A DNA stretch of 64,000 nucleotides, from assembly GCF_001902635.1 (NCBI RefSeq), contig NZ_MJAO01000002.1:124001-188000 (forward strand), given 5' to 3'. Positions 43,905 to 60,713 of the stretch are shown one piece after another. A program made the position numbers and the translations under genes. The notes beneath the pieces were generated by a model, which saw only the letters and a list, made by a program, of their open reading frames with translations, searched no databases and was not told the DNA's origin. The DNA is from Serratia marcescens (GTDB taxonomy: Bacteria; Pseudomonadota; Gammaproteobacteria; Enterobacterales; Enterobacteriaceae). How positions within the stretch are numbered: the stretch's first letter is position 1; each line of letters begins with the position of its first letter.

Positions 43905-44942
43905 TTACGCCACCATGGCGGCGGATTTGATCGGTTGCAACAATTGGCCGACATCGCAATTGAGCAGTTGCGCACGTTGCAGCAATTCCTCAGTCTTGGC
44001 GCCAATCACGGAATGAACGTAGGCGTTGACCTGCTCCTGATTCATTTGGTTGTAGCGGTCGGCGAATGCCATTTCGATACTGTCGCAGATCACCGCACCG
44101 GCGTTACTGACGTAGTCCGGCAGATAATGGATGCCGCGTGCCAGCAACCGCTGTTCGGCCTGCGGCGTATTGAACGGCGAGTTGGCGCTGCTGATCACCC
44201 AACGGGTATTCAGCAGTTCGACGTTCTGTGCATTCAAGATGTTGGACAATGAAGCGATGCACAGCACCTCGCTGGGTTGCGCCCAAAGCTCTTCTTCGCT
44301 GACGCGGCGCACCCCAGGCGGGAACTGCGCCGCAGGGTTGATGTCGTACGCCATCACGTCGCAACCGAACAGCAGGCTCTGTTTCGCCACTTCAGCCCCC
44401 ACTTTTCCCATGCCGTGGATAGCGATGCGGGCGCGAGGCAAATGGTTGAGCCGCAGCGTCAACACCTTCTTCATCGAACTCCAGACGCCGTAGCCCGTCG
44501 CCACCGAGGTATCGACTTGCGGGCTGTCCATGGCGTTCAGGATCCACGGCGTGAACTGCCGCAGGTAGTTCATCTCTTGATTGCCGGTATTGATATCGCA
44601 CCCCGTAAACATGGTGCCGCCATAGCGATTGAGCAGTTCGCCGATCGCTTCAAGCACCGCAGGTTGCTCTTGGGGGGAACGTTTGCAGTTCACCACAATC
44701 TTGCCGCCGCTGAAACCGGTGTTGTACAGCCCGTGTTTCAGCGACATGCGCTGCGCCAGCATGATCGCCTCCTCCTCCTGCTGTTGGCGGGACGCATAAT
44801 TGCGCCACCGGATGCCGCCATTGGCCGGCAACAGCTTGATCTGCGAAGAATAAGCCAGGGTGAATGACGTTTCGTCATCGATCACCACCGTTTCTACCTG
44901 ATATTGGTTATGCGTATTCAGCAATTCGTTGTTAACTGACAT
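43905..44942 (-). CDS. Glu/Leu/Phe/Val dehydrogenase-like NAD-dependent enzyme
   Basis: The 345-aa protein resembles leucine dehydrogenases: substrate-domain lysines in MSLKHG and SGGKIVV, the TGYGVWSSMKK block, NAD-binding GMGKVGAEVA, and YLPDYVSNAGAV near the C-terminus. Members reversibly deaminate amino acids to 2-oxo acids. It is last in the operon with a NikD/sarcosine-oxidase-like flavoenzyme and an adenylating enzyme. One reading is that it converts a basic amino acid to a cyclic imine which the flavoenzyme aromatises before activation; this is inference. AGGATGG precedes the ATG. Confidence 0.82.
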   Translation of the reverse strand: MSVNNELLNTHNQYQVETVVIDDETSFTLAYSSQIKLLPANGGIRWRNYASRQQQEEEAIMLAQRMSLKHGLYNTGFSGGKIVVNCKRSPQEQPAVLEAIGELLNRYGGTMFTGCDINTGNQEMNYLRQFTPWILNAMDSPQVDTSVATGYGVWSSMKKVLTLRLNHLPRARIAIHGMGKVGAEVAKQSLLFGCDVMAYDINPAAQFPPGVRRVSEEELWAQPSEVLCIASLSNILNAQNVELLNTRWVISSANSPFNTPQAEQRLLARGIHYLPDYVSNAGAVICDSIEMAFADRYNQMNQEQVNAYVHSVIGAKTEELLQRAQLLNCDVGQLLQPIKSAAMVA

Positions 44943-44958
44943 AATTTGCCATCCTGTT

Positions 44959-47838
44959 TTAATGGGATTCTTGCTCGAATGCTCCAGCCTGGTCTAACTG
45001 TTGTTTTATGCCCCACGGCGTAGGCCGCTGTAGAAAACCGGCCATGCTTATCGCCTGGCCAAACTCTTGCTCCAACATCGCCATCAGGCGCAGCGCCATC
45101 AGCGACTGACCGCCGGCGTCAAAAAAATCACAGTGGTTGGAATCGGGGTTCACGCCGGTCACATCGCCCCAAACGCGCCAGATGCGCGCCATCTCCGGAT
45201 CGGGCTTATCCGTTGCCGCCGGCGTGCGTCCGGCTTCCGGCCCCTGTCGGTCTCGTTCACCCAACCACCATTGCGCCGGATCGAAGGGATACATCGGCAA
45301 CGCGATGCGCGAAGGCGGGATCTGCCACAGGCGGCGCCAGTTAACGTTAACGCTGGCGCGCCAGATCTTTTGCAGCGCCTGGATCCACACGGCGCTTTCG
45401 CTCTGCGCTTCGTCGCGGCGCGGCAACGTTCGCACCGCCGTCACGGTGCCGGTGGATTTCAGCTGTGCGACCAACGCCGTGAGCGTCGAGCCTGGGCCCA
45501 CTTCGACGAACAGCGTCTTGCCGCGCCGCGGGATATGCTGCAAGGCGCGATGGTAATTGACGGGTTCACGGGCATGGCGCGACCAATAGCGGCCGTCAAG
45601 CGCCGCAGGCGCAATTTCGGTCGCCAGCAAGGCAGAAACGTAGCGTACCCCCGTCGTCGGTTCACCCGGCGGCGGCGCGAGGGCGGCCAGTTCGTCAAGA
45701 ATGGGGTCCATCAGGGCCGAATGGAACGCATGCGACACATTCAATGCCTTGCAGCGCACGCCTCTGTCGCGCATCTGTCGTTCGCAAGCGCGAATAGCCT
45801 CAGCCGCGCCGGATAGCACGCAGCCGTTCTCACTGTTCTCCGCCGCCAGAGACAGGCGATCGCCCAACCAGGGCTGAACCTGCTGCGCGCTCAGCTCTAC
45901 CGCCAACATCATCCCGGATTGCAGCCCGGCCATCAGGCGTCCGCGGCGGGCGGCGAAGAGCAACGCCTCGTGCGTTGAGAACACGCCGGCGGCCCAGGCC
46001 GCAGCGATCTCGCCCAGGCTGTGCCCAACGACCCAATCCGGCTCGACGCCGTAATGCTTCAGCAGTTCGGCCACCGCGATTTCGACGGCGATCAGCGCAG
46101 GCTGCGTCAAGGCGGTGTCGTTGATCGTCTCGGGCGCGGCCTGTCCGGTAAACAAGGGAGAAAGATCCAGGGCGGCATGCGTTTGCAAAATCTGCAGTTT
46201 GTCGTCCATCAGTTTTCTGAAGGTCGCATCCTGCGCCATCAAATCGCTGGCCATACCGATAAACTGGCTTCCCTGACCTGGGAATTGGAACACCACGGAC
46301 AAACGCCCCTTGCCCGTATCTACCATGTTTTCTTTCACGCTCAATACGCCCTGTTCATCGATATGCAACGTGCCGCGATAACGCAGCGGTTTTCTCCCGC
46401 TTTGCGCGCTCCAGGCCAGACGCCCGTCGTTCTCGCCGCATGGACGCTGCAGATAACGTTTTGCCAATCGGTGCCAGGCCTGCTCGGACTGTGCGCTGAT
46501 CGGCACGACCGTGGCCGCCAACGCGGCCGTTGTCTGCGCAGGTGGTGTTTGCGGCGGTCTCGCCAGCACCACATGCGCATTCGTTCCGCCGATGCCAAAT
46601 GCGCTGACGCCGATCGCCTGGCGCGGATCGTCGCGCTCCCAACGTTGTGCGGAACAGATGAACTCAAACGGGCTATCCGCCAATGCCATCTCCGGATTTG
46701 GCGAGGCAAAGTTGATCTGCGGCGCAATCCAGCCGTGCCGGATCTGCAGCGCGGCTTTGATCAATCCCGCCATGCCGGCGCAGGTTTCCAGGTGCCCGAC
46801 ATTGGCCTTGACTGCGCCGATGGCGCAGAAAGCACGCTGCGTCGATCGTTCGCGGAAAACGCTGTTTAGCGCGTCGAATTCGATGGGATCGCCGGCCAAC
46901 GTGCCGGTGCCGTGCGCTTCGATGGCGCGGAAGGCCTCCGGCGCCAGTCGGGCATCGTCCATCGCCTGACGCAACAGGCGTTGCTGGCCATGCAAGCTGG
47001 TCGTGGTAAAGCTGACTTTGCGCGCGCCGTCATTATTCATCGCCACGCCTTTGATCACGGCGATGACGTCATCGCCGGCCGCCAGCGCGTCAGTCAGGCG
47101 TTTCATCACCACGACGCCGACGCCGCTGCCGAAAACCGTGCCGCTGGCATCCGCGGAAAATGGCCGGCAGTGTCCATCGGTGGAAAACACCATGCCCTGC
47201 TGCGCGAAATATCCGTCATCTTGCGGGATCCGCAGGGTGCACGCGCCGGCCAGCGCCATGTTGCAGCGGCCGCTGCGCAACGCGTGAACCGCTTCGTAAA
47301 CCGCCACCAACGAAGTGGCGCAGGCGGCCTGCACATTGCACACCGGCCCCCCGATGCCCAGGTGCCAGGCCACTCTGCTGGTGAGGTAATCTTTATCGCT
47401 CGCGATTTGCCGCTCAAACGGCGACGGGTTGAGTTTGCCGAGCAACTCAGACCCCTCCGCCTGGCGCAAATAGTCAGAACCGCTGCAGCCGGCGAACAAT
47501 CCGGTCTCTTCGAGCTCGCCCGGCGTCACCCCGGCGCTTTCCAGAGCGTGCCAGGCGCACTCCAGAAAGAGCCTTTGCTGGGGATCCATCAGCAGCGCTT
47601 CGCGCGCGCTCAGGCCGAAGAACCCCGCATCGAAACGGGATATATCGCCGGCTATCGGCGCCGCAACCGGGATATATCCACTGTCGACGGCATTCCCCCG
47701 ATCGTTATCGACGCGAACCAGCGATTCGACGCCGTTGATCAAGTTATGCCACCAGCTTTCGGTGTCCTCGGCGCCCGGGAAGCGGCAGGCCATACCCACC
47801 AAGGCGATATCCCGTTCATTGCTGTTCACCTGCTGCAT
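44959..47838 (-). CDS. Type I PKS module KS-AT-carrier protein
   Basis: The 959-aa single-module PKS has KS (about residues 10-425: VGMACRFPG, AACATS, EAHGTGT, VGHLETC), AT (about 505-790: FPGQGSQ, GHSLGEIAA, SHAFHSALM) and a C-terminal peptidyl-carrier-like domain (about 870-945: DAGGQSLMALRLM). The HAFH motif predicts malonyl-CoA as extender. There is no KR, DH, ER or TE, so one round would give an unreduced beta-ketoacyl thioester. A starter is presumably loaded from the EntE-like ligase via the small carrier protein encoded upstream. Unlike region 1 this is a cis-AT enzyme, so the two clusters are biochemically distinct. The gene starts 13 nt after the flavoenzyme gene. Confidence 0.95.
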   Translation of the reverse strand: MQQVNSNERDIALVGMACRFPGAEDTESWWHNLINGVESLVRVDNDRGNAVDSGYIPVAAPIAGDISRFDAGFFGLSAREALLMDPQQRLFLECAWHALESAGVTPGELEETGLFAGCSGSDYLRQAEGSELLGKLNPSPFERQIASDKDYLTSRVAWHLGIGGPVCNVQAACATSLVAVYEAVHALRSGRCNMALAGACTLRIPQDDGYFAQQGMVFSTDGHCRPFSADASGTVFGSGVGVVVMKRLTDALAAGDDVIAVIKGVAMNNDGARKVSFTTTSLHGQQRLLRQAMDDARLAPEAFRAIEAHGTGTLAGDPIEFDALNSVFRERSTQRAFCAIGAVKANVGHLETCAGMAGLIKAALQIRHGWIAPQINFASPNPEMALADSPFEFICSAQRWERDDPRQAIGVSAFGIGGTNAHVVLARPPQTPPAQTTAALAATVVPISAQSEQAWHRLAKRYLQRPCGENDGRLAWSAQSGRKPLRYRGTLHIDEQGVLSVKENMVDTGKGRLSVVFQFPGQGSQFIGMASDLMAQDATFRKLMDDKLQILQTHAALDLSPLFTGQAAPETINDTALTQPALIAVEIAVAELLKHYGVEPDWVVGHSLGEIAAAWAAGVFSTHEALLFAARRGRLMAGLQSGMMLAVELSAQQVQPWLGDRLSLAAENSENGCVLSGAAEAIRACERQMRDRGVRCKALNVSHAFHSALMDPILDELAALAPPPGEPTTGVRYVSALLATEIAPAALDGRYWSRHAREPVNYHRALQHIPRRGKTLFVEVGPGSTLTALVAQLKSTGTVTAVRTLPRRDEAQSESAVWIQALQKIWRASVNVNWRRLWQIPPSRIALPMYPFDPAQWWLGERDRQGPEAGRTPAATDKPDPEMARIWRVWGDVTGVNPDSNHCDFFDAGGQSLMALRLMAMLEQEFGQAISMAGFLQRPTPWGIKQQLDQAGAFEQESH

Positions 47839-47851
47839 AAAGGTTCTCCGA

Positions 47852-49027
47852 TCAGAAACGCAATGCGCTGATGTCCCAACGCGGCTCTCGTTCCGCCAGC
47901 AGGTCGGCGCAAATTTGCCCCATCAGAGGGGTGAATTTGAACGCCCAGCCCCCTGCCGAGACCACCAGATGTTCACCGCCGTGGCAGCGGCCCTTGGCGC
48001 TGTCGAGATAGAATTGGCGCGCCGGATCGGTAGGCAGCACCGCCAGACAGCTTGACGCGGAATGCTGTTTATCCGGCGCGAGGAAAGGCATGTGCCGGCG
48101 GGCAAACTCCAACGCCCGCTCCACGTGCTGCGGGTTGGCCTGGTAACTTGGCGCATTGGCCTCGGTGATCGGATCCACTTCAAAGTCGGTTCCCAGACGA
48201 TCAAAGCCATTGACTGACCAAGGGTTGGGCGGGAAACCGTAGAACAGGTTGCTGTCGCTCTCCACCGGCGGCTGGAAGGCAAACCAGAAGGGATCGTTGG
48301 CCCCAAGACGCTGGCTGCGCAGCATGCTGATACAGGCCATCTCATAGGTGGACAGCGCCAGATCGATATCCAGCTGGCGCAGCAGCTTCTTGCTGCCCGG
48401 CCCGCCGGCGACCAGAACTTTACGGGCGCGATAACGATTTTGCGTCGTCAGCACCGTTGCGCCCCGGGCATCGGGTTCCACGGCCTTCACGCATTGCTGG
48501 AACTGGAACTCCACACCGGCCTCGCTCGCCAGCGAGTAAAGCGACGCCAGCGTGCCTTTAACGTCGATCACCCCGCCGTCTTGCTGCAAGAAGCCTTCAT
48601 AGTTGCTGTCCAGCCCGGTAAAACCGTAGCGTCGTTCGATTTCGCGCATCGCCAGACGCTCATAGGGCAACCGCATCTCATCCATCGACAGCATGGTTTG
48701 GCGGATCTGCCCCTCATTGGTCCAGACATCCGCATCGCCGAACCACAGGCTGCCGATTCGGTGGATCAATTTTCTATCCGCCTGCTGCTCCAACTGCCGC
48801 CATAACTTGTCGGCTTCCAGGGTCAGGCGAAATATTTCCAATTCGGAATATTGCAAACGCCAGTGGCGTTCTTCGCCGCTGGTGCCAGCCAATTGCGTAA
48901 ATAACGTGTGTTGTTCCAGCACCAATACTTTATGGTCCTGATGTTCTCGCGCATAATTCCACGCGGCGGCCAGCCCGATGGGGCCGGCGCCGATAATAAT
49001 GACATCCCAGTGTACTGACGTGTGCAT
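47852..49027 (-). CDS. FAD-dependent amine oxidase, monomeric sarcosine oxidase/NikD-like
   Basis: The 391-aa protein has an N-terminal FAD site (IIGAGPIGLAAAW...VLVLEQ), the DxxGGxI-like family block and a C-terminal GGWAFKFTPLMG aligned to the HGFKFAPxxG of sarcosine oxidases. The covalent-flavin Cys position is kept (SSCLAVLPTDP). The family oxidises C-N bonds of cyclic or N-methyl amino acids; NikD makes picolinate from piperideine-2-carboxylate. Next to an amino-acid dehydrogenase and an aryl-acid-type ligase, a heteroaromatic carboxylate starter is a reasonable guess but not shown. ATG 49027 with GAGGGATAGGT is chosen over the in-frame TTG 49042. Confidence 0.85.
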   Translation of the reverse strand: MHTSVHWDVIIIGAGPIGLAAAWNYAREHQDHKVLVLEQHTLFTQLAGTSGEERHWRLQYSELEIFRLTLEADKLWRQLEQQADRKLIHRIGSLWFGDADVWTNEGQIRQTMLSMDEMRLPYERLAMREIERRYGFTGLDSNYEGFLQQDGGVIDVKGTLASLYSLASEAGVEFQFQQCVKAVEPDARGATVLTTQNRYRARKVLVAGGPGSKKLLRQLDIDLALSTYEMACISMLRSQRLGANDPFWFAFQPPVESDSNLFYGFPPNPWSVNGFDRLGTDFEVDPITEANAPSYQANPQHVERALEFARRHMPFLAPDKQHSASSCLAVLPTDPARQFYLDSAKGRCHGGEHLVVSAGGWAFKFTPLMGQICADLLAEREPRWDISALRF

Positions 49028-49067
49028 ACCTATCCCTCGCAACGGATATTCTGTGTGTTTGATAAAA

Positions 49068-49625
49068 TTATTTTTTAATTAAGCTTTTAATCTGATCCAA
49101 CGGCACCAGGACGATCAGCGTCAAATATTTTTCTCGCGGAATATCCTGATAAAGCTGACGCACGCCAATTTTCCCCATGACATCCCCGCTGACGCCGGCG
49201 GCGAACAGCGATTGCCATTGCCCCGCCCAAATGGCGCTGGAATTCCAGATACCGGCGGTTTCGATCCGGCCCAGCGGCGTTTCGGCGGTTTCGTGATACC
49301 AGGAAACCACGCTGTCATCCGGCAATGAGGCGATCTTCCATCCCTGCCCCTTCATCGTGCCAACATCACGCCCTTGCTTATCCACCAACAGGTCAGTGTG
49401 TGAATTGGCATCGCCAACGTTAGGGGCATTATCCGTTTTCGCTTTAAAGGTAATATTCGCCATTTCGATAACGGAAAACACCGTGACATTTTTATAACCG
49501 TCATTCGATTCGAGAATACGTTCAACTTCCGTGGCATCTTTGCTGGCGTTCATTAACTGACGAACATAATCCCCAAGCGTGATCAGCTCAGACAATACAT
49601 TGTTATTGCCTTGTATAATTTCCAT
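49068..49625 (-). CDS. Unrecognised 185-aa protein of the metallophore-type cluster
   Basis: This soluble protein lacks a signal peptide or transmembrane segment. The C-terminal two-thirds alternates short hydrophobic strands (NITFKA, DLLVDKQG, SVVSWYHE, YLTLIVLVPLDQ), suggesting a beta-barrel such as an allene-oxide-cyclase- or lipocalin-like fold, though no family motif is secure. Two conserved-looking blocks stand out: HETAETPLGRIETAG and AGVSGDVMGKIG. AAGGA precedes the ATG. It is embedded in the operon between the PLP enzyme and the flavoenzyme, so it probably takes part in the pathway, possibly as a cyclase or isomerase, but no function is assigned. Confidence 0.75.
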   Translation of the reverse strand: MEIIQGNNNVLSELITLGDYVRQLMNASKDATEVERILESNDGYKNVTVFSVIEMANITFKAKTDNAPNVGDANSHTDLLVDKQGRDVGTMKGQGWKIASLPDDSVVSWYHETAETPLGRIETAGIWNSSAIWAGQWQSLFAAGVSGDVMGKIGVRQLYQDIPREKYLTLIVLVPLDQIKSLIKK

Positions 49626-49647: not shown

Positions 49648-50676
49648 TTATGCGGTCAATGCTTCAGACTGTTTGAACCAGTCACGCCCTTTTTCACGAT
49701 CGATATCGGAACCGGCGTCGGCGAAGAGCGTGACAACGCGTTGATCCGGGCCCAGCGTTTCGGCCAGCTTACAAGCCGTTTTCCAGTTAGCGGCTGATGA
49801 GGCGCCGATTTTTACGCCGGTCAGTTGATGGAACTCGTACATCGCGCTGAGGGCTTCCCGATAGGAGACCGGATTGAAAGGCGGCTCTTGCGGCATCAGT
49901 TTACTGATGAAGGGTTGACGGAAACCGAAGCCCAATCCACCGGCACCGGCGAATTTCGGCTCGCCGTTAGGCGCGGACAGCGTACCGTAAGGCAGTTCGC
50001 GCGGCGTGCTGCCCCACACGATCAGCTGCGGGTTATCCTGCCGCAACGCCGCGGCGACGCCCGACAGCGTACCGCCGGTTCCTACCGCCGAGACCCAGCC
50101 GTCGACGCGTTCGCCGTTCAGCTGCCGACGGATCTCTCCGCCCGTCTCATGCTGATGTACGGCAGTATTGACCAGGTTGAGATGCTGGGAAAGCAGCGTC
50201 CAACTCGCATCTTCATGCGCAATCTGCTGGCTGCGCGCAATCACGCCGAGCAGGAATTGATTGCGATCGACCAGGGTAACGACGGCATTGTCCCCCTTCA
50301 GCGTATCGATCAGCGGTTGCGGAGACGAATCCGGGATCACCACTTGCACCGCTATCCCGCACATGTTGCCGAGTTTAGCCAGCGCTTTCGCCATATTGCC
50401 CCCCGAGGAATCGAGCAACTTCAATTCACCGGTGGCGAAGTCGTGTTGATTGATGGCATCGCAGAACAGGCCGAACGCGGTACGATCCTTCACCGAACCA
50501 AACGGATTTTCAAACTCGAACTTGGCGTAAATCGACGCTTTCCCCTTTGGCGACGGCACTTCAACCAGCGGGGTATTGCCTAACGCCGCATAGAATTTTT
50601 TCAATTGGGGGAACAGAGTAAAGGCTTTCTCCGTATCCGGCGCGCCATCCTGTGGGTTAAACAGCTCAAAATTCAT
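49648..50676 (-). CDS. Cysteine synthase-like PLP enzyme
   Basis: The 342-aa fold-type II PLP enzyme has the internal aldimine Lys in GSVKDR, the substrate-binding SSGGNMAKA block, the phosphate loop GTGGTLSG and a C-terminal FADAG. It resembles cysteine synthase and SbnA-type enzymes that replace the beta-substituent of a serine derivative. In metallophore clusters such paralogues supply 2,3-diaminopropionate or related amino acids; here the partner dehydrogenase is not of the SbnB type, so the product is open. ATG 50676 follows AAAGGAA and is preferred over ATG 50697, which has no Shine-Dalgarno. Confidence 0.85.
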   Translation of the reverse strand: MNFELFNPQDGAPDTEKAFTLFPQLKKFYAALGNTPLVEVPSPKGKASIYAKFEFENPFGSVKDRTAFGLFCDAINQHDFATGELKLLDSSGGNMAKALAKLGNMCGIAVQVVIPDSSPQPLIDTLKGDNAVVTLVDRNQFLLGVIARSQQIAHEDASWTLLSQHLNLVNTAVHQHETGGEIRRQLNGERVDGWVSAVGTGGTLSGVAAALRQDNPQLIVWGSTPRELPYGTLSAPNGEPKFAGAGGLGFGFRQPFISKLMPQEPPFNPVSYREALSAMYEFHQLTGVKIGASSAANWKTACKLAETLGPDQRVVTLFADAGSDIDREKGRDWFKQSEALTA

Positions 50677-50718
50677 CAGAGGTTCCTTTAAAGCCATACG
50701 TTGACAAATAAACCAGCG

Positions 50719-51447
50719 TTACTGAAGCAGCTGGCGGAGAAACGCAGCGGTGTCCTGCGTGAAATAAAAGTGGTCGCCAGCCAGGAAGCGAGTCCGGCTG
50801 CCGGGAAGTTCCGTTTCCCACTGCAACAGCGCGGCGCGGCTCACCAACGGATCGTTGTCGCCCCCCCAAATCCGTGGCTGCAGGTCGGGCAGCGGTTCGG
50901 CGCAGAGCGCACCCAGCAGCTGTAAATCTTGCTGTATCAAGCGGGTGACAAGAGGCCGCGTGATCTCATCAAGCGACAGCGCGCCGCTGCGTTCACTGAA
51001 CGTCAGGATGCTGTCCAACACTTCCTGCCGTTGGCTTTCCTGCCGGAGTATTTTCAGCTCAGAGGGGGCGCGCTGTGCCGACAACACGGTGTCGATGCTA
51101 AAGCGCGACGTTTGCAGCGCTGCGGCAACCTGCAGCGCGAGCAACGTGCCCATGCTGTGACCGAAAATCACCACCGGCGCGATACCCAGTGAGGATTGCA
51201 GCGCATTGACGCAGCTCGCGATCGCGCGCTGCGCCGTTTCCCAGGCCGGCACGTCTTGCGCTTCTTCACGGCCGGGATATTGCACGATGAACAGATCCAC
51301 CTCGTCCGGCAGCAGGTCGCGCCAGTGTTGGTAGAAAGCGGCGCCGCCGCCGGCGTGCGGAAAAACGACCAGTTGCTTGCTGACCGGCGAACTGCTCAGG
51401 CGGCTGAGCCTGACCACGCAGCCGAGAGACGTGCGCAACCCCGTCAT
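50719..51447 (-). CDS. Type II thioesterase
   Basis: The 242-aa alpha/beta hydrolase has VVFPHAGGGA, the nucleophile elbow GHSMGTLLA and a C-terminal catalytic His in GDHFYF, as in GrsT/YbtT-type editing thioesterases of NRPS and PKS clusters. It removes misprimed or stalled acyl groups from carrier proteins, and could also release the final product because no TE domain exists in the PKS. Its ATG overlaps the ligase stop by 4 nt (ATGA). Confidence 0.92.
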   Translation of the reverse strand: MTGLRTSLGCVVRLSRLSSSPVSKQLVVFPHAGGGAAFYQHWRDLLPDEVDLFIVQYPGREEAQDVPAWETAQRAIASCVNALQSSLGIAPVVIFGHSMGTLLALQVAAALQTSRFSIDTVLSAQRAPSELKILRQESQRQEVLDSILTFSERSGALSLDEITRPLVTRLIQQDLQLLGALCAEPLPDLQPRIWGGDNDPLVSRAALLQWETELPGSRTRFLAGDHFYFTQDTAAFLRQLLQ

Positions 51448-53048
51448 GAGTTCAACCCCGCCGTATTTTTGGCTGGCCGTTGTTGACGCAGCAGGTCGCG
51501 CAGCGTCAGACGATCTATCTTGCCGATGCCCTTCATGGGAATGGCGTCGATGACGATCAATTTTTCCGGCGCCTTGAACGCCGCCAACCCTTCTTTCTCA
51601 AAGAAACGGCGCAATGCGCTGAGAGTCAGGGTGTCATCTGCGGTGGTGACAAACAGGCACGGCACTTCACCGTACAGATCGTCCTCCATGCCGACGCAGG
51701 CGGCGCGCACCACGGCGGGATGCTGTTCAGCCAACTCCTCTATCTCGTTCGGGCTGAACTTTTCCCCTCCGCGGTTGATAGAATCGTTGACGCGTCCATC
51801 GATGAAAATATTGCCAGCGGCGTCGACGTGCGCCAGATCGCCGGTACGGTAAAAGCCGTCCGCCGTAAAGGCAGTGAGATTAGCCTTGGGGTTTTGGTAG
51901 TACTCGGTGAGCGTATAAGGGCCGCGGGTGATCAGTTCACCTGACTTGCCGACGGGCAACGGGCGATCGTTTTCATCGACGATCAGCACTTCATCATGCG
52001 GACTCAGCGGCCGCCCCTGTGAGCTGAAGCGCAGCGCGTCATCGTCGTCGACCGCGTTAAAACACAGCAGCCCTTCGCTCATGCCATAACATTGCTGCAG
52101 GGTGATGCCGAGGTCGCGGGATGAGGAGGCCGCCAGCTCAGGCGTCACCCTGGCGCCCCCCACCTGGACATGCCATAACGACGTCAGGTTGCGCGGCGTT
52201 TGGCGCTGAAGTTCGCTCCATTGTGACAGCAACGCGGGCACCAGCGTGGTGTGCGTCACGCCGCACCGTTCGATCACGTCCAACGCCGTTTCCGCCGATG
52301 GCGCATCGGCGAGCGCCACGGCGCCGCCGCGAGAAAGCGTGCCGAGTATGCCGGGGCAATTGATGACGAATCCGTGTGAAACCGGCATAGCGGCGAAATA
52401 GACCGAATGACTCGCCAAAACGAACACGTCACAGCCGCATTCGATCATATAGCTGTAGCCGCCATTTTTACGGGCGATCGCTTTAGGCAAACCGGTGGTG
52501 CCGCTCGAGAGCAGCATGACGGCGGTATCTGACGGCGTCATGGTGACGGCGCAGAGTTCCGGCGCGGGCGTCAATGGTGCACAGAAATGTTGCAGGTTTA
52601 AATAGCGCGTATCGTGCCCGGCGTCATCGTAGTCTTCGACCAGTATCACGTCGATGTTGAGACCTTCCGCCAACAGCGTCTGCAAGGCGGCCAACGGATT
52701 ATAGCGACGGGAGCCGCGCTGCAGAGCAAACACTTTCGGCGCTGTCAGATGCAGAATGTGCCGCAGCTCTTTCTCCCGGTAAGAGGGCAAGATCGGCACC
52801 GGTATCGCGCCGAGCATCAGCGACGACAGCATCACGATGACCGCTTCGCGGGTATTACGCAATTGATATGCGATCCGGTCGCCCTTCTCCACACCCAGTT
52901 GACGCAACCTGTGGGCTGTCGAAGCGACCGCGCCGTTCAGCCAGTCGTAGCTGTAAACCTCCTCGTTTTCAAAAAGCGCCGGGCGTTGTCCATACTGCTG
53001 AAGGGCCCGCAATAAACGTTGATTGATTGAATCCTCAACACTGACCAT
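51444..53048 (-). CDS. EntE-like aryl/heteroaryl acid adenylating enzyme
   Basis: The 534-aa ANL-superfamily ligase has the P-loop SSGTTGLPKA, PVSHGF, YGMSEGLLC, YRTGDLAHVD, NRGGEKFSPNEIEE and the C-terminal catalytic Lys in GIGKIDR. The overall pattern is closest to 2,3-dihydroxybenzoate/salicylate-AMP ligases (EntE, DhbE, YbtE). It should activate a carboxylic acid as AMP ester and load it on a carrier protein, probably that encoded at 53574-53350. The acid is unknown; there is no isochorismate pathway gene nearby. Transcription probably starts at the operator-overlapped promoter at 53243-53215. GGAG precedes the ATG. Confidence 0.93.
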   Translation of the reverse strand: MVSVEDSINQRLLRALQQYGQRPALFENEEVYSYDWLNGAVASTAHRLRQLGVEKGDRIAYQLRNTREAVIVMLSSLMLGAIPVPILPSYREKELRHILHLTAPKVFALQRGSRRYNPLAALQTLLAEGLNIDVILVEDYDDAGHDTRYLNLQHFCAPLTPAPELCAVTMTPSDTAVMLLSSGTTGLPKAIARKNGGYSYMIECGCDVFVLASHSVYFAAMPVSHGFVINCPGILGTLSRGGAVALADAPSAETALDVIERCGVTHTTLVPALLSQWSELQRQTPRNLTSLWHVQVGGARVTPELAASSSRDLGITLQQCYGMSEGLLCFNAVDDDDALRFSSQGRPLSPHDEVLIVDENDRPLPVGKSGELITRGPYTLTEYYQNPKANLTAFTADGFYRTGDLAHVDAAGNIFIDGRVNDSINRGGEKFSPNEIEELAEQHPAVVRAACVGMEDDLYGEVPCLFVTTADDTLTLSALRRFFEKEGLAAFKAPEKLIVIDAIPMKGIGKIDRLTLRDLLRQQRPAKNTAGLNS

Positions 53049-53214: not shown

Positions 53215-53243
53215 ATCAAACACCACGACCGACCGTCAGTCAA
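53215..53243 (-). promoter_or_regulatory. Promoter of the ligase operon overlapped by a TetR-type operator
   Basis: On the - strand, TTGACT and TTTGAT are separated by exactly 17 bp, and the spacer carries the repeat TGACTGACGGTCGGTC (53227-53243 in total). The same repeat family occurs at 53616-53634 and 57700-57717. The rest of 53049-53349 has no gene; part of it is T-rich. Confidence 0.6.
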
Positions 53244-53615: not shown

Positions 53616-53644
53616 TTGACCGTCAGTCGGTCAATGAGTATTTT
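53616..53644 (+). promoter_or_regulatory. Promoter of the TonB receptor gene with TetR-type operator
   Basis: TTGACCGTCAGTCGGTCAA (53616-53634) is a 7-bp inverted repeat around a 5-bp centre; its first six bases form a -35 box, followed after 17 bp by TATTTT (53639). This places the transcript start near 53650 and argues against translation starts at 53616 or 53634. Confidence 0.6.
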
Positions 53645-53711: not shown

Positions 53712-55853
53712 TTGAACAAATTCAACGGACTTCACCTAAGACGCGCTTATCTTTGTCCGCTGCTGTTGGGCATGGCGGCCTGCTTTACGCAGGCCGCCGA
53801 CGAAGAGTCGATATGGGTGGTGGCCGACAGTTCATCCACAAACAACGCTCTACGTGGCTACGCGGCCCAACAAGCGGAAGTGGCGACCAAGACCCGTTCG
53901 CCGCTGGTCGAAGTGCCGCAATTCGTCTCGGTGGTCAACCGCCAGCAAATGGACGTGCAATCAGCCGACACCGTCAGCCAGGCGCTGCGTTACAGCGCCG
54001 GCGTCGCCGTGGAGCGCTTCGGCGCATTTTCCAGCGGCGTAGACTTCGCCAGAATTCGCGGTTTTGACGCCGACTACTATTTGGATGGCTTACGCGTCAT
54101 CGGCAATACCGGCATTTGGGGGCCACAGATTGAAGCCTGGGGATTGCAAAGCGTCGAAGTCCTGCATGGCCCCTCCTCCTCGTTATACGGCCAAGGCGGC
54201 GCCGGCGGCGTGATCAATATGGTTTCCCGACGCCCCTCCGCTACCGAGTCGAATCAACTCAAGCTGGATGTTGGCAATTACCGCACGCGTTCCCTCAGCC
54301 TCGATGCCACCGGCGCGCTAACTGACGATGAACAGTGGCTGTACCGCGTCGATGGCCTGGCGGCGACCCGCGGCTCGCAAATCGAAGACACCAAGCAGAA
54401 GCGCCTCTATCTGGCGCCCGCAATAACCTGGCAGCCGAACGAACGCACGCGCTGGACCGTGCTGACCCACTATTTGCGTGAACCCCAATCGGGCTATTAC
54501 AACACGTTGCCCGCCCAGGTATTGGGCCTACTGCCCAATCCGCGCGGCAAGATCGACACCGACAGAAATTACAGCGATCCGGCGCACGAGCGTTCGAGCC
54601 GCACGCAGTATGACGTAACCTCGCTGTTTGAGTTCGAGTTAAACGATCGCTGGCGCTTTAAGCAGAATCTGCGCTATTCCCACGTAGACTCTGCGGTGCG
54701 ACGCGATTTTACGCGTGCTGTCACCCCGGACAATCGCCTTTTGACGGCGGTCTATCAAGACTCCCCCAGCCAGGCGGATAGCGTCGTAATGGATAACCAG
54801 GCCGCAGCGACATTCGTCACCGGCCCCATCGGCCATCGGTGGCTGAGCGGAATCGACTATCAGACCGGTAAACTTGATAAAAACTGGTGGGGTTCGCAAA
54901 CCGTGACGTTCGATCCCTGGTCCAGCCAATACCGGCCCTCATTCGATCCCGTGCCGGTTTCACGCACGTCGACAACGCAACGTTTTCACCGTGTAGGCGT
55001 ATACGGACAGGATGAAGCACGTTGGCGGGGATGGCATTTGCTGTTGGGCGGCCGCCATGACTGGTCGCGAATGCGCACCAGTGACAATCTGGCCCATACC
55101 CAAACGCAAACCAATGACGCCGCCTGGAGCTATCGCGCCGGGTTGAGTTACCCGTTCGACAGCGGTTTGGCACCTTGGACCAGCGTCTCTACCGCCTTCG
55201 ATCCGCTGACCGGCACCGACGCTCGGGGCGCACCGTTCAAGCCCACCCATTCCACGCAGTATGAAATGGGCCTGAAACTTCAGCCACCCGGCAGTGCAAC
55301 AATGACCAGCCTGGCGGTCTACCAACTGACGCAACGCGATGTGAACACCGTCGATCCCCTCAATCCCAGTTATTACACGCAAACTGGCGAGGTGCGTTCC
55401 CGGGGCGTGGAGCTGGAATCGCGGGCGGCGCTGACCGAAAACCTCAACCTGATGCTGTCCTATGCCTGGGTCAACAACGTCGTGACTCAGGCCAACGATA
55501 ATACCCAAGGGCGGCACCCCGTCGGCGTTCCGGCGCAAACCGGCTCAATGTGGCTGGACTATCGCTTTACTCAAGGTTTTTTGCAGGGGCTGCTGATCGG
55601 CGGCGGTGCCCGCTACCTGGGATCGAGTTGGGGAGATGGCGCCAACACCTTCAAAGTGCCCGCCGTTTGGCTCGGTGATATGTCCGTTCGTTATACGCCG
55701 GGCGCCTGGGATGCTCGCTTGTATAATCTGGAGCTGGGGTTGACCGTCAACAATCTGACCAACAAATCTTATGTCGCCAGTTGTACCAGCGCGCCTTACT
55801 GCAGCATCGGGGTCGAACGCAGCGTCATCGGTTCGATAAGTTGGTATTTCTGA
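53712..55853 (+). CDS. TonB-dependent siderophore receptor
   Basis: The 713-aa outer-membrane protein has a signal peptide (MNKFNGLHLRRAYLCPLLLGM...QAA), a TonB-box-like segment ESIWVVA, a plug domain (VPQFVSVV, ALRYSAGV, GPSSSLYGQGGAGGVINMVSRRP) and a 22-strand barrel ending in the terminal Phe (ISWYF). It resembles FhuA/FoxA-class siderophore receptors, importing a ferric or other metal chelate. TTG 53712 is preferred because AAAGGGA precedes it and the signal peptide then starts cleanly; upstream in-frame starts lie in the promoter. The stop overlaps the next gene's start (TGATG). The ligand is presumably the product of the adjacent - strand operon. Confidence 0.92.
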   Translation: MNKFNGLHLRRAYLCPLLLGMAACFTQAADEESIWVVADSSSTNNALRGYAAQQAEVATKTRSPLVEVPQFVSVVNRQQMDVQSADTVSQALRYSAGVAVERFGAFSSGVDFARIRGFDADYYLDGLRVIGNTGIWGPQIEAWGLQSVEVLHGPSSSLYGQGGAGGVINMVSRRPSATESNQLKLDVGNYRTRSLSLDATGALTDDEQWLYRVDGLAATRGSQIEDTKQKRLYLAPAITWQPNERTRWTVLTHYLREPQSGYYNTLPAQVLGLLPNPRGKIDTDRNYSDPAHERSSRTQYDVTSLFEFELNDRWRFKQNLRYSHVDSAVRRDFTRAVTPDNRLLTAVYQDSPSQADSVVMDNQAAATFVTGPIGHRWLSGIDYQTGKLDKNWWGSQTVTFDPWSSQYRPSFDPVPVSRTSTTQRFHRVGVYGQDEARWRGWHLLLGGRHDWSRMRTSDNLAHTQTQTNDAAWSYRAGLSYPFDSGLAPWTSVSTAFDPLTGTDARGAPFKPTHSTQYEMGLKLQPPGSATMTSLAVYQLTQRDVNTVDPLNPSYYTQTGEVRSRGVELESRAALTENLNLMLSYAWVNNVVTQANDNTQGRHPVGVPAQTGSMWLDYRFTQGFLQGLLIGGGARYLGSSWGDGANTFKVPAVWLGDMSVRYTPGAWDARLYNLELGLTVNNLTNKSYVASCTSAPYCSIGVERSVIGSISWYF

Positions 55854-56992
55854 TGCGCAGACGGCGTTTTCTTCAGGCGGCCACCTTACTGGCGCTTTCT
55901 GCGCCCTTGCGATCTCTGCGCGCTCAGGCCGATACGCAGAGCGTTACCGATATCGTCGGGCGCACGGTGATCTTGCGCTATCCGCTGCGGCGTATTTTCC
56001 TGGCGGAAGGCAATCTGTTTTATACCGTCGCGGCGCTCAATCCGCGTTCACCGATGGAAAAACTGGTGGGTTGGCGAGACAACTTCCGCACCGCCGATCT
56101 GGACAGCTATCAGCTGTACCTGCGTCATTTTCCCGAGCTGGCGCAGCTGCCGACTTTTGCCGGGGTGCAGCAGATACAATTCGATCTGGAAAGGCTGATC
56201 GCCTTGCGGCCCGAAGCCATGCTGCTCAATGCCAATACTCGCTCGGCGTTGGAAGCGAGCGGCCTGATGGCGAAACTCACGGCGGCGAACATCCCCGTGG
56301 TTTTTGTCGATATGAGCATCGGCCTGATGAACAATAGCGCCAGAAGCATCGCCATCATGGGACAATTGTTTGATAATCCACAAAGTGCAGACAGTCTGAT
56401 TCGCTTTCGCCAGCGACATCTGGATAAGATCCTCGCCACGTTGGCGAAACGGACCCCGCCGCGCCCACGGGTCATGATGGAGCGCGCCGCCGGGTTGTAC
56501 GACGATTGCTGCCTGTCTTGGGGAAATGGCAACTACGGTGAGATGGTGGATATCGCAGGCGGGTTCAATTTGGCTCAGACGCATATCCGCGGCGTCTATG
56601 GCTCGCTGAGTCAGGAAACGGTGATCGCTTCCCGACCCGATAAAATTGTCGTGACCGGCAGCAACTGGCGTAATTACTCGCCTCATGGCGACTGGGTCAA
56701 CCTCGGCCCGGGCGCAGACTTAGCTCTGGCAAAAACGCGGCTGGAAAAATTGATGCGCCGCCCGGCTTACCGCACTCTGGCCGCGGCAAAAAGCGGAAAA
56801 GCGTATGCCATCTGGCACCCGTTTTACGATCATCCTTTTAATTTTGTCGCCATCGAGCGGCTGGCCACCTGGTTCCATCCGGCGCTGTTCGCCGACGTTG
56901 ATCCCGAGGCGACGTTTGCGGAGCTCTTCGCCCGCTTTCTTTCCATTCCGTATCAACCCGGTTATTGGCTATCGCTGGAGGCGGGGGCATGA
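55853..56992 (+). CDS. Tat-exported periplasmic metal-chelate binding protein (ABC importer)
   Basis: The 379-aa protein has a twin-arginine signal peptide (MRRRRFLQAATLLALSA) and a type III periplasmic binding fold as in FhuD/BtuF/FepB: VTDIVGRTV, RRIFLAEG, LIALRPEAMLLN, ASRPDKIVVTG. It receives the chelate after the TonB receptor. Start ATG 55853 overlaps the receptor stop by one base, so the two are translationally coupled. No inner-membrane permease or ATPase gene is in the window, so import would need a transporter encoded elsewhere. Confidence 0.88.
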   Translation: MRRRRFLQAATLLALSAPLRSLRAQADTQSVTDIVGRTVILRYPLRRIFLAEGNLFYTVAALNPRSPMEKLVGWRDNFRTADLDSYQLYLRHFPELAQLPTFAGVQQIQFDLERLIALRPEAMLLNANTRSALEASGLMAKLTAANIPVVFVDMSIGLMNNSARSIAIMGQLFDNPQSADSLIRFRQRHLDKILATLAKRTPPRPRVMMERAAGLYDDCCLSWGNGNYGEMVDIAGGFNLAQTHIRGVYGSLSQETVIASRPDKIVVTGSNWRNYSPHGDWVNLGPGADLALAKTRLEKLMRRPAYRTLAAAKSGKAYAIWHPFYDHPFNFVAIERLATWFHPALFADVDPEATFAELFARFLSIPYQPGYWLSLEAGA

Positions 56993-56996
56993 ACGA

Positions 56997-57605
56997 TCAG
57001 CGACACCCCAGCAAACGCATGAATTCCTGCGCCAGCGCCGCCCCCAGCCTTTGACGGTCGGCGTTGGGATTGACCATGACGTCATCCACGGCGCCGTGCA
57101 TGCCGTGATACATCAGGATGGCGGTCAGATGCGGGTTATCCAGCCGCCAGGCCCCCGCCGCCGCGCCGTCGTTTAAAATCGTCAGGATCTGTTCCAGCAC
57201 GGCATCACGATCCTGATTGCCTCGGGTATGATAATGATGATCGTGATACAACGCGTCGTGCAGTTCCATGCCTTCGAAATAGGTCGCCACGCCGGCGTCA
57301 CACCAGGCTCTCAGACGCGCCAACCAGTCATCCGGCGCACACTCATCGATAGCCAGCTGAATTTTCTCGATGAAGTGATTGGTGAAACGTATACGTAATG
57401 CAGACAACATTTCGTTCTTGGACGGGAAATAGTGGTAGAACGTCCCTTTGGCAACGTTGGCGTCGCGGACGATATCGCTGATGGTGGTCGCTTCAAAACC
57501 CTTTTCGATAAACAACTTCTGCGCCGCATCCATCAGTTCGTCCAGGCGCACTTCCGCCGGTTTGGTACGAGGCTGTGTTTCTTTCATCTTTTCTTTTGTC
57601 TTCAT
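56997..57605 (-). CDS. TetR-family repressor, probable regulator of the metallophore-type cluster
   Basis: The 202-aa protein has an N-terminal TetR HTH (LMDAAQKLFIEKGFEATTISDIVRDANVAKGTFYHYFPSKNEML, spelled here in motif terms: GFEATTISDIV and GTFYHYF) and an all-helical ligand domain. ATG 57605 is chosen; ATG 57587 and the weaker TTG 57686 are in frame. It lies convergent with the binding-protein gene and divergent from the exporter gene, with a candidate operator at 57700. Related sites occur before the ligase operon and the receptor gene, suggesting that it controls all three units. The effector may be the cluster product. Confidence 0.9.
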   Translation of the reverse strand: MKTKEKMKETQPRTKPAEVRLDELMDAAQKLFIEKGFEATTISDIVRDANVAKGTFYHYFPSKNEMLSALRIRFTNHFIEKIQLAIDECAPDDWLARLRAWCDAGVATYFEGMELHDALYHDHHYHTRGNQDRDAVLEQILTILNDGAAAGAWRLDNPHLTAILMYHGMHGAVDDVMVNPNADRQRLGAALAQEFMRLLGCR

Positions 57606-57699
57606 ATCAACGTCCACTGGGAGCCCAGCGGCCATCGTAACCAATGTTGTTGCCATTGACCAGCCGGCCTGGCGCAGTGAAATCAATATTCACACTCCA

Positions 57700-57717
57700 T
57701 TGACCGACGGTCAGTCA
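57700..57717. promoter_or_regulatory. TetR-type operator between repressor and exporter genes
   Basis: TTGACCGACGGTCAGTCA contains the perfect 13-bp palindrome TGACCGACGGTCA around a single central base. It shares its sequence with the sites at 53227 and 53616, and its start coincides with a possible -35 box (TTGACC) for the exporter gene. Confidence 0.68.
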
Positions 57718-57728
57718 TAATATAAGGT

Positions 57729-57774: not shown

Positions 57775-59325
57775 ATGTCCGGTATGCGCAGGATTTCGCT
57801 CGTTGCCGCCATCTGTCTGGGTACATTTATGGCGTCGCTCGATATCAGCATTGTCAATGTGGCACTGCCCACCATGCTGGAATCACTGCAAACCGACATG
57901 TCGGGCCTGCAGTGGGTTGTTGACGCCTACGCCCTTTGCCTCTCTGCGTTGATTCTTTCTTCCGGCCCGCTGGGTGACCGATTTGGCCGCAAGCGCATTT
58001 GGCTCTGCGGCGTGGCGTTATTTACCCTCGGTTCGATCGTGTGCGCATTCGCCACCAGTCTCGGCATGCTGTTGACGGGCCGAGTGATCCAGGGCATCGC
58101 CGGCGCCGCCGTGATCCCCGGCGCGCTGTCTCTCTTGACCCATGCTTTTCCGGAAGAGCAATTGCGCACCCGGGCGATCGGTATCTGGTCCTCGGTCAAT
58201 GCCCTCTCTTTGGTGATTGGGCCGGTTCTGGGGGGGCTGCTGGTGCACACCACCGGTTGGCCGGGCATCTTTTGGATCAATATTCCGGTTGGGATCATCG
58301 CACTGGTGTTGGGGGGCTGGGGGCTGCGGGAAAGCTCGCATCCGGAGCAGGCCGCGCTCGATCCGCTTGGCCAGGGGTTGAGCATCTTGTGGCTCGGCGC
58401 GCTGACCTATGGGTTGATTGCCGCCGGCGAATTCGGCTGGCACAGCGCACAGTCACGCTTTCCGCTGTACGCCGCCCTGGTGCTGTTTGCGCTGTTTCTC
58501 TGGGTGGAAACGCAGGTCAAACGCCCTTTGCTGCAGTTAAGTCTGTTTCGTCACGCCGACTTTACCGGCTATAACCTCGCCTCTTTCGTGCTCGGCTTCT
58601 CCGCTTACAGCAGCGTCTTCTTCGTGTCGCTGTTTCTGCAACAGGCGCAAGGCTGGAGCCCCGCCGACACCGGCTGGCGCATGGCGCCCGAATTCCTCGC
58701 CATGGCGCTGGCCGCTTCCGGTTTCGGCCGCCTGTCCGCCAAGCTGAGCGTGAACTCTCTGATGATCGCCGGCTACGGCTCGATGGGCATTGCCCTGCTG
58801 TTGCTGACGCAGCTGCATGCCGATTCGCCTTACGCCCTGGTGGCGCTGTATTTGGCCTTGCTCGGTTTCGGCATGGGCTTGTCGATGCCGGCGACCAGCG
58901 CATTGGTGATGCGCACCGTCGAGCCGCAACGCTCTGGAATGGCGTCAGCCACGATGAACGCGCTGCGACAAACCGGCATGACGCTGGGCATCGCCTTGCT
59001 GGGCACGCTGATGAGCATGAAAGCGGTCACGACCTTGACCGCGGCTTTGCAAACGCAAGGGGTGGAACAGGCAGCCGCAATCGCCCGGGCCGCAGTGATC
59101 GAACAACAGCAGACGGCCGCCGACGCGTTGAGCGCGAGCCGCCTGCAAGATCTGACGCATAGCGCCTTCGCCGGCGGTTTCGGGATCGCCATGCTTTGGG
59201 CCGGGTTGCTCAGTATTGCGATGACCGTCTGGCTGCTGATCATGCTTCACCCGCGTTTTCGTCTGCATACACAGGCCGAGAACGCCGCACTGAGCAAGTC
59301 ACCTGAACGACTGAACGAGGAATAA
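57775..59325 (+). CDS. MFS multidrug/metallophore exporter, DHA2 (EmrB/QacA) type
   Basis: The 516-aa inner-membrane protein has about 14 hydrophobic segments. It carries the family signatures LDISIVNVALPTM in the first helix, GPLGDRFGRKR (motif A) and GPVLGGLL (motif C of antiporters). By context it exports the product of the - strand operon or another toxic ligand sensed by TetR. AAGGAG precedes the ATG. The following PrpD-like gene starts 3 nt after its stop, so the two form an operon. Confidence 0.92.
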   Translation: MSGMRRISLVAAICLGTFMASLDISIVNVALPTMLESLQTDMSGLQWVVDAYALCLSALILSSGPLGDRFGRKRIWLCGVALFTLGSIVCAFATSLGMLLTGRVIQGIAGAAVIPGALSLLTHAFPEEQLRTRAIGIWSSVNALSLVIGPVLGGLLVHTTGWPGIFWINIPVGIIALVLGGWGLRESSHPEQAALDPLGQGLSILWLGALTYGLIAAGEFGWHSAQSRFPLYAALVLFALFLWVETQVKRPLLQLSLFRHADFTGYNLASFVLGFSAYSSVFFVSLFLQQAQGWSPADTGWRMAPEFLAMALAASGFGRLSAKLSVNSLMIAGYGSMGIALLLLTQLHADSPYALVALYLALLGFGMGLSMPATSALVMRTVEPQRSGMASATMNALRQTGMTLGIALLGTLMSMKAVTTLTAALQTQGVEQAAAIARAAVIEQQQTAADALSASRLQDLTHSAFAGGFGIAMLWAGLLSIAMTVWLLIMLHPRFRLHTQAENAALSKSPERLNEE

Positions 59326-59327
59326 AC

Positions 59328-60713
59328 ATGACGAAATTACCGGTCGACCCGATCGAAGAATTGATCGCTTTCGCTTCGCAGGTCGATGCTTGCATGATTC
59401 CCCCCGCCGTCTTGGCATTCCAATGCAAACGGCTGATGGATAATCTTGGCTGCCTCGCCGCCGGGTACGATCAAAGCGGCGTTGACGCGGCGCTGTCGTT
59501 GGCCCGGCGCTGGAGCGGCAACGCCGAGGCCAGCATTATCGGCAGCGAGGAGCGCCTCGCCGCACCGCAGGCGGCATTCGTCAACGCCGTGCGCGCCCGT
59601 GCGCTCGACTATTGCGACGTCCTTTCCCCCGGTTGGCACCCCAGCTCCTCGGATATTCCGGTGGCGTTGGCGGCGGCGGAACTGTCGGGCGCTTCCGGCC
59701 TGGACATGCTGGCTGCATTGGCCGTTGGGCAAGATTTTGCCCAACGCATCAATCTCGCCGCACAGGCGAACGGCTTTTTCTATCGCGGATTCGATTCGAA
59801 TATCCTCGGTCTGTTTTCCGGTGCGGTGATCGCCGCCCGCTTGCTGCGCCTGGATCAGCAGGCCTTTGCCGACGCTATCGGCCTGGCGTTCGATTTCGGC
59901 ATCGGCACCTTCCAACACTACCAGGACAAAACGTTGGCGGTACGCATCAGCCAGGGGTTGGTGGCGCGCCATGCGCTGGAAGCGGTCATGATGGCGCAGG
60001 CCGGCATAAGCGGCCCCAAACGCGTCCTGAGCGGAGAGAACGGCTTTTTTAATCTTTATGCGCCGGGTGAACCCGACCTGGGGTCATTAACTCGCCAACT
60101 GGGCATCGCCTTTCTGGGTGAAGAAGCCACCTGCTTCAAACTGTACCCGCATTGCAGCATTCTGCTGGCGTTGACCGAAACGCTCTTGAACGACGGGCCG
60201 CACCGGCAGTTGTCCGCTCCCGAACGGGCGAAAATCACGCTGCATGCGTCACCGACCATGCGTATGGTGTGCGGCGCGCCCTATGAGCCGCAGAAAACGG
60301 CCGAAATCGACGCGCAATTCAGCGCGCGTTATATCATCGCCAATGCGTTGCTGCGCGGCCAGGCCAGCGCTCGCGAATTCAGCGCCGACTTCGCGATGGA
60401 ACCGACGGTCGTTGCACTGGCGCAACGTATCGAAGTTCATGAACAAAACGCTTTCGAACGGTTTGACCGCTTCGAACTGCATATCACGCCGGAACAAGGC
60501 GATACGCTGCGGCTTGAAGCGGAGTTCGGCCGCGGTTGGCCGGAGAACCCGGCGGACCTGCAGGATATCCGGGAGAAATTTCTTCGCTGCTGCGCGCAAT
60601 CGCCTAATCATGGATTGCGGCATAATGCGCAAGAACTGATGGCCTGCATCGAGAATCTGGTCGAAGCGCCGTCCTTGCATGCCTTGTTGGCCGCAACGCG
60701 CGACGTTCGCTAG
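59328..60713 (+). CDS. MmgE/PrpD-family protein
   Basis: The 461-aa protein belongs to the MmgE/PrpD fold, which includes 2-methylcitrate dehydratase, cis-aconitate decarboxylase and iminodisuccinate epimerase. Visible blocks are the N-terminal DNLGCLAAGYDQS, the AARALDYCDVL region with the substrate loop PSSSDIPVALA, HYQDKTLAVRI-like lid and FKLYPHCS. GAGG precedes the ATG, and the 3-nt gap from the exporter gene indicates co-transcription. It may make or modify a tricarboxylate or iminodicarboxylate building block, or be unrelated to the pathway. The reaction cannot be assigned from the sequence. Confidence 0.85.
   Translation: MTKLPVDPIEELIAFASQVDACMIPPAVLAFQCKRLMDNLGCLAAGYDQSGVDAALSLARRWSGNAEASIIGSEERLAAPQAAFVNAVRARALDYCDVLSPGWHPSSSDIPVALAAAELSGASGLDMLAALAVGQDFAQRINLAAQANGFFYRGFDSNILGLFSGAVIAARLLRLDQQAFADAIGLAFDFGIGTFQHYQDKTLAVRISQGLVARHALEAVMMAQAGISGPKRVLSGENGFFNLYAPGEPDLGSLTRQLGIAFLGEEATCFKLYPHCSILLALTETLLNDGPHRQLSAPERAKITLHASPTMRMVCGAPYEPQKTAEIDAQFSARYIIANALLRGQASAREFSADFAMEPTVVALAQRIEVHEQNAFERFDRFELHITPEQGDTLRLEAEFGRGWPENPADLQDIREKFLRCCAQSPNHGLRHNAQELMACIENLVEAPSLHALLAATRDVR

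Follow-up and report, generated by a model that had tools for sequence, protein, structure and literature searches.

The window analysed here, a stretch of 64,000 nucleotides, covers positions 124001-188000 of a contig in a 5.26 Mb Serratia genome; all coordinates below are those of the window. Judged from their sequence and arrangement, seven minus-strand genes at 43905-53048 very probably constitute a ros cluster for the ferrous-iron chelator proferrorosamine A (pyrimine), a pink Fe(II) chelator of the plant bacterium Erwinia. This is a known pathway at a new location, the Serratia chromosome, and not an unknown pathway. The original prediction for this DNA had described an unrecognised metallophore-type cluster. 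"Unrecognised" fails because close synteny with a characterised cluster, which the prediction had itself named as speaking against it, holds for ros. Its observations were confirmed and its interpretation was supported in part. Every gene it named was found (ligase, carrier, polyketide synthase (PKS), dehydrogenase, oxidase, CysK-like enzyme, thioesterase, TonB receptor, binding protein, TetR regulator and exporter); its list, mostly right, omits an AOC-like gene at 49068-49625 and an MmgE/PrpD gene at 59328-60713.

A very probable ros cluster in Serratia

According to later papers, the ros cluster (rosA-G) was first described by Born et al. 2016. The genes rosA-rosG of Erwinia rhapontici P45 are listed as proferrorosamine genes in the available text of PMC9650351, and Table 6 of the same paper places all seven in E. 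persicina NBRC 102418. In the window, the genes run from 53048 down to 43905 in the order A-B-C-D-E-F-G, the published ros order, as one operon. Letters were assigned by synteny together with the roles published for rosA, rosC and rosF. In the following list, 2,3-dihydroxybenzoate is abbreviated DHB, pyridoxal phosphate PLP, and ketosynthase, acyltransferase and acyl carrier protein KS, AT and ACP.

51444..53048, minus strand: rosA, acid-AMP ligase of EntE/DhbE type, proposed to activate picolinate (DHB-AMP ligase family; match to 6e8o, E 3e-105)
50719..51447, minus strand: rosB, thioesterase, proposed release or editing (PF00975, E 1e-24)
49648..50697, minus strand: rosC, PLP enzyme resembling cysteine synthase, proposed to form a C-C bond with O-acetylserine (PF00291)
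49068..49625, minus strand: rosD, AOC-like beta-barrel protein of 185 amino acids, possible cyclase (PF18678, AOC_like, E 5e-32)
47852..49027, minus strand: rosE, NikD-like flavoprotein oxidase, proposed picolinate formation (NikD match, 419 bits)
44959..47838, minus strand: rosF, type I PKS, KS-AT-ACP (KS, AT and PP-binding domains by Pfam)
43905..44942, minus strand: rosG, Leu/Glu-dehydrogenase-like, proposed lysine 2-deamination (PF00208/PF02812)

When named genomes were scanned with an alignment of six RosC sequences, 12 loci were obtained, and five of these hold the whole cluster (S. marcescens 106R, S. ureilytica, E. rhapontici H1, E. persicina NBRC 102418 and Pantoea A4). With the window and two further genomes of the same genus, G007 and G011, there are eight distinct whole-cluster loci, over which the conservation of motifs was counted. 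The order carrier-rosA-B-C-D-E-F-G, which includes a small carrier gene described below, is identical in all eight. We assign the cluster to ros because the order rosA-G is kept throughout these loci, including that of E. persicina NBRC 102418 (Table 6, PMC9650351). The locus of this reported ros carrier (L021) has all seven genes, at 56-79% identity to those of the window. Across the two Erwinia loci, identity to the window proteins was 78-82% for RosC, 79% for RosE and 65-66% for RosF. The Erwinia loci also share the orientation of the seven core genes, the small carrier, a TetR gene and the operators.

Conserved motifs of the biosynthetic enzymes

RosA, which shares 72% identity with its E. 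rhapontici H1 counterpart, is a member of the DHB-AMP ligase family, as would be expected of a salicylate- or DHB-type siderophore cluster supplied with its aryl acid by genes at another place in the genome. We hold such a cluster to be very improbable and rejected it because of the RosA pocket and because the same operon encodes a NikD-like oxidase. In the pocket motif HGFVINCPG, a Gly, found in 8/8 RosA, replaces the Asn of DhbE (1md9), EntE (3rg2), 6e8o and the salicylate ligase 5wm2. Of the five DHB/salicylate ligases aligned, four have this Asn; the remaining one, EntE entry 6iyk, has Gly as well and is presumably an engineered EntE variant. We take the Asn to contact the 2-hydroxyl, a group absent from picolinate. 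Furthermore, a Pfam scan of 17 proteins encoded at 42747-63930 revealed no condensation or cyclisation domain of the enterobactin/yersiniabactin type. DHB or salicylate synthesis genes were likewise absent from the cluster, the rest of the genome not having been searched for them. Both absences had been noted in the original prediction, which saw no nonribosomal peptide synthetase (NRPS) condensation module and no salicylate/DHB synthesis gene.

The NikD-like oxidase is RosE (79% identical to E. rhapontici H1). It aligns nearly full length with NikD (PDB 2oln/2q6u), at 419 bits, with sarcosine oxidase as the next family at 91 bits, and its SCLAVLP motif is kept in all eight loci. NikD is, as we understand it, the oxidase that turns piperideine-2-carboxylate into picolinate. 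It belongs to the nikkomycin pathway, not to a siderophore pathway, and differs from RosE in this respect.

In RosC (82%, same reference strain) the lysine of the SVKDR motif, which we take to be the Schiff-base lysine for PLP, is intact in 8/8 loci. The RosC loop reads SGGNMA, compared to TSGNTG in the best solved cysteine synthase, a change in keeping with an altered substrate or nucleophile. RosF (66%) comprises KS, AT and ACP domains; ACATS, GHS(L/V)GE, HAFH and GG(Q/H)SL are all kept (8/8), and HAFH in the AT is presumably a malonyl-type motif. The RosB motif GHSMG is equally invariant (8/8; protein 56% identical). The best solved match of RosG (72%) was leucine dehydrogenase 7vid (E 3e-29). 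SLKHG, SGGK and GCDIN, with two lysines and one aspartate, are conserved in every RosG (8/8), and we assume that these residues are dehydrogenase active-site positions.

The small carrier protein

A further gene lies upstream of rosA and is outside the rosA-G list of PMC9650351.

53350..53574, minus strand: small carrier of 74 amino acids, proposed picolinoyl carrier

It is present in all eight whole-cluster loci. Its profile matched 6lk3, a "Putative free-standing acyl carrier protein", at E 4e-12 over residues 5-70 of 74, and the Ser within (S/T)SAETVAL is invariant.

RosD resembles barrel cyclases

RosD is 70% identical to its counterpart in E. rhapontici H1. A profile built from eight RosD sequences matched AbmU (E 9e-9) and the AbyU chains 5dyq/5dyv (E 1e-7); PloI4 and PyrI4 reached just E 0.15-0.25, which is non-significant alone. 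The AlphaFold model of RosD was weak, with a predicted local distance difference test score (pLDDT) of 56.5, and Foldseek with this model placed AbmU/AbyU on top (E 2e-8). The top 43 of these matches, with E values up to 0.001, comprised AbmU, AbyU, AbnU, PyrI4, PloI4, Cyc15, Tsn15, LucK and a pyocyanin demethylase. Thus the closest solved relatives are mostly pericyclic cyclases, and a non-cyclase, the demethylase, is also among the fold matches. By likeness of sequence and predicted fold, RosD appears to belong with the AbyU/AbmU-type barrel cyclases. Because profile and Foldseek matches agree on these cyclases, we propose that RosD may guide closure of the pyrroline ring. A literature search joining AbyU, siderophore and Erwinia found nothing, and one joining Serratia marcescens with NikD or picolinic acid was equally empty.

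Transport genes

Genes for uptake and export, the latter of the major facilitator superfamily (MFS), lie on the plus strand beside the ros operon.

53712..55853, plus strand: TonB-dependent receptor, FhuA/FoxA-like (PF00593/PF07715; start inferred, the listed open reading frame opening at 53616 within the promoter)
55853..56992, plus strand: periplasmic chelate-binding protein (PF01497; start inferred, the listed open reading frame opening at 55781)
57775..59325, plus strand: DHA2-type MFS exporter (TIGR00711 above cutoff)

The receptor scored above cutoff for TIGR01783 and below the cutoffs of the FhuA and FoxA models. The ferrichrome/ferrioxamine model PRK14048 matched the binding protein at E 4e-58, below the model cutoff. 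Here the Erwinia loci differ: a more distantly related TonB receptor (43-44%) and a binding protein at 50% identity are encoded downstream of rosG, and the MFS gene has no match within the ~21 kb examined per locus.

Three operators and a TetR-family regulator

56997..57686, minus strand: TetR-family regulator, proposed cluster repressor (PF00440; exact start uncertain)
53227..53243, no strand: operator 1, overlapping the -35-like hexamer of rosA
53616..53634, no strand: operator 2, between the carrier and TonB genes, overlapping the -35-like hexamers of both
57700..57718, no strand: operator 3, between tetR and the MFS exporter gene, with weaker promoter geometry

The window holds 10 copies of the core GACYGNCNGTC, compared to 1.4 in block shuffles, and eight of the ten sit in three palindromes in the rosA, carrier/TonB and tetR/MFS intergenic regions. 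A motif-free repeat search likewise paired two of the three operator sites. When the 5.26 Mb genome was searched with a longer operator pattern, four exact matches were obtained, all inside the three promoter regions. There were also 11 matches with one mismatch, one of them in the tetR/MFS site; those elsewhere are at chance level because a reversed control gave 38 matches at up to one mismatch. The operators recur in all eight whole-cluster loci, with three in each (in Pantoea, two by the strict pattern). In both Erwinia loci the third operator precedes the relocated binding-protein gene. L008 and L013 have one extra core match within rosA. A Xenorhabdus locus that holds a RosC relative has no such site at all.

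At the rosA, carrier and TonB genes, the first letters of the site form a TTGACY hexamer, and a -10-like hexamer with 4, 5 and 4 of 6 letters, respectively, lies at a spacing of 17 bases. The best promoter spacing at the MFS gene was 15, and inspection of the operator sites found no good promoter at tetR. The TetR protein is 75% identical in both Erwinia loci, and the obvious ligand of the three operators would be this regulator of the cluster.

Control of the Fur/TetR type had been predicted for the cluster. A TetR-family protein is indeed encoded (PF00440), and Fur control is weakly supported at most: the 17 scanned proteins included no Fur protein, and Fur-like boxes were weak. Boxes with at least 13 of 19 consensus letters numbered 11 in the window compared to 2.2 in block shuffles, an excess over this simple chance model. 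Two of them lie at cluster promoters (53596 and 57729; 13/19 each), and the best (15 at 57230, 14 at 57224) are inside tetR.

Proposed pathway and related systems

The ros pathway proposed in the available text of PMC11481915 comprises picolinate, one malonyl-CoA added by a type I PKS, O-acetylserine introduced by the PLP enzyme RosC, and spontaneous ring closure. For Serratia we infer substrates, order of steps, product and direction of transport as follows. RosG would deaminate lysine to the cyclic piperideine-2-carboxylate, and RosE would oxidise this to picolinate. RosA would then activate picolinate and load the small carrier, and RosF would add one malonyl unit. Release by RosB is predicted to give a 3-keto acid, which would lose CO2, and RosC may couple the resulting carbon nucleophile to the aminoacrylate derived from O-acetylserine. 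Imine closure, perhaps with RosD as cyclase, would yield the pyrroline; the predicted product is an Fe(II)-chelating pyridyl-pyrroline carboxylate. The MFS protein would export the chelator, the iron complex would return by way of the TonB receptor and binding protein, and the three promoter regions would be repressed by the TetR protein. A metallophore-type cluster with an aryl or heteroaryl starter and a single malonate extension, as originally predicted, is supported by these results. The same applies to the speculative lysine-derived picolinate starter.

Two other systems resemble this scheme. Siderochelin (sid) of Amycolatopsis WAC04611 shares, according to the available text of PMC11481915, a picolinate-type starter, one PKS extension, a PLP enzyme with O-acetylserine, and an Fe(II)-binding pyridyl-dihydropyrrole product. 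Its own features are a 3-hydroxypicolinate starter, a methylmalonyl extender, discrete PKS proteins, and amide and hydroxyl tailoring. That text reports minimal synteny of sid and ros, and our comparison with sid follows its description, not its sequence. Caerulomycin and collismycin, 2,2'-bipyridine chelators, likewise have a lysine-derived picolinate starter and a malonate extension (available text of PMC8149447). They differ in that lysine is handled by an aminotransferase and cysteine by an NRPS module, and neither enzyme is among the scanned window proteins; in particular, a caerulomycin-type cyclisation-adenylation-peptidyl carrier (Cy-A-PCP) module for cysteine was not found by Pfam in the 17 proteins of 42747-63930.

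Edges of the cluster

Two further genes adjoin the ros and transport genes.

59328..60713, plus strand: MmgE/PrpD-family protein (PF03972/PF19305), behind the exporter gene
42747..43844, minus strand: 365-amino-acid protein of phage family phrog_2889 (E 1e-104), directly downstream of rosG

The 365-amino-acid protein (56% identical in Pantoea A4) had a sub-threshold FGE-sulfatase match (E 0.21), and its structure model was unusable (pLDDT 33.3).

Judged from the Serratia relatives, the cluster extends from about 42.7 to 60.7 kb. We searched 16 genomes of the same genus that lack ros for the flanking genes: the flank gene at 41677-42684 was present in nine, the LysR gene at 60747-61670 in five, and both in four. 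Between the two flanks lie 9.0 kb (G013) and 7.6 kb (G015) of other genes; by coordinates, the flank spacing in G017 is the same, and in G014 the flanks are ~42 kb apart. Because relatives without ros hold other genes between its flanks, the cluster is a variable block at this chromosomal place. In the ros-positive G007, the end of the PrpD gene abuts a PLD gene, without LysR and NmrA genes in between. A plasmid origin was rejected: RosD had no tblastn match in a plasmid collection, from which records near the source genome may be excluded, and the contig that holds the window is 312,535 bases long. Elsewhere in the window, G+C content is 42.5% at 36001-38000 and 46.4% at 6001-8000, compared to 53-62% in the remaining 2-kb steps; these two steps may be acquired DNA.

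Distribution of RosC

RosC was found at E 1e-100 or better in six of 60 genomes, the source genome included (five of 30 of the same genus, and G033). In a 394-genome sample of the order, the source genome was the sole match at 1e-90. In total, 16 distinct loci carry RosC: eight whole clusters, five with RosC but without the rest, and three remote ones (29-42% identity). The RosC relatives without other core genes (59-74% identity) belong to Xenorhabdus szentirmaii, Biostraticola tofi, two Sodalis and G033, and RosC alone was therefore rejected as a marker for ros.

L017, 10001-11011: RosC-only locus
L018, 10001-11023: RosC-only locus
L019, 10001-11020: RosC-only locus
L020, 10001-11022: RosC-only locus
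L012, 9810-10829: RosC-only locus

Among the neighbours listed, those of RosC in L017, L018, L012 and L019 looked housekeeping-like by eye. The open 343-amino-acid RosC frame in the Sodalis symbiont L019 suggests that the enzyme also serves some other, unknown purpose. A 42-residue carrier-like piece at 9534-9659 of L017, ~340 bases upstream of the Xenorhabdus RosC gene, is perhaps the remnant of a once larger cluster.

These loci show that partial clusters or stray genes occur, and the Serratia cluster might in the same way be decayed and kept by chance. This is hardly likely: the seven reading frames have no internal stop in any of the eight whole-cluster loci, and the examined motifs are intact.

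Assignment and end product

Several points weigh against the assignment to ros. The Erwinia comparison was made with strains H1 and NBRC 102418, and the P45 proteins AMB18973-AMB18979 are outside the compared set. Identity of the window proteins to E. rhapontici H1 is just 56-82%. RosC alone proves nothing, since half of the loci that bear it (8/16) are without the cluster. None of the eight small carrier proteins had a Pfam carrier match, and hhalign found no relation between the small carrier and the carrier domain of RosF (probability 0.9%, control 0.2%). Fur control of the cluster, as read from the boxes, is weakly supported at most. Finally, two further genes are conserved in Serratia and Pantoea and could alter the product.

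These are the phrog_2889 and MmgE/PrpD genes. Both adjoin the core in all five Serratia loci and in Pantoea A4, and neither has a match in the 21 kb around each Erwinia locus. The core pathway might then be the same, differing in the end product alone, which one of the two proteins would tailor, e.g. to a substituted pyridyl-pyrroline. We consider this rather unlikely: the family matched by the 365-amino-acid protein is one of phage proteins, no biosynthetic role is assigned to either gene, and the PrpD gene follows that of the exporter, outside the ros operon. Unmodified proferrorosamine is the probable end product predicted from the ros genes.

Implications

No described Serratia ros cluster turned up in the literature searched, which leaves most subscription papers outside its coverage, and Serratia is unmentioned in the text-searched literature naming proferrorosamine. 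A pink pigment named pyrimine has reportedly been described from Serratia itself. The chelator is also attributed to Pseudomonas roseus fluorescens, according to a reference title in PMC11481915.

More tentatively, and with considerable doubt, RosD might catalyse a ring-forming step, either closing the pyrroline or orienting the C-C coupling by RosC, while the TetR protein and its three operators would form a dedicated ros regulon that senses the chelator or an intermediate. If true, a Diels-Alderase-type fold would have been recruited to siderophore biosynthesis, at a step called spontaneous in the available text of PMC11481915. The conserved carrier protein, the shared operator and RosD as a candidate cyclase are parts beyond the rosA-G list. 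With the ros cluster, Serratia gains a genetic basis for a ferrous-iron chelator otherwise described from Erwinia, and this chelator could be mistaken for, or add to, iron-uptake and pigment phenotypes of Serratia.

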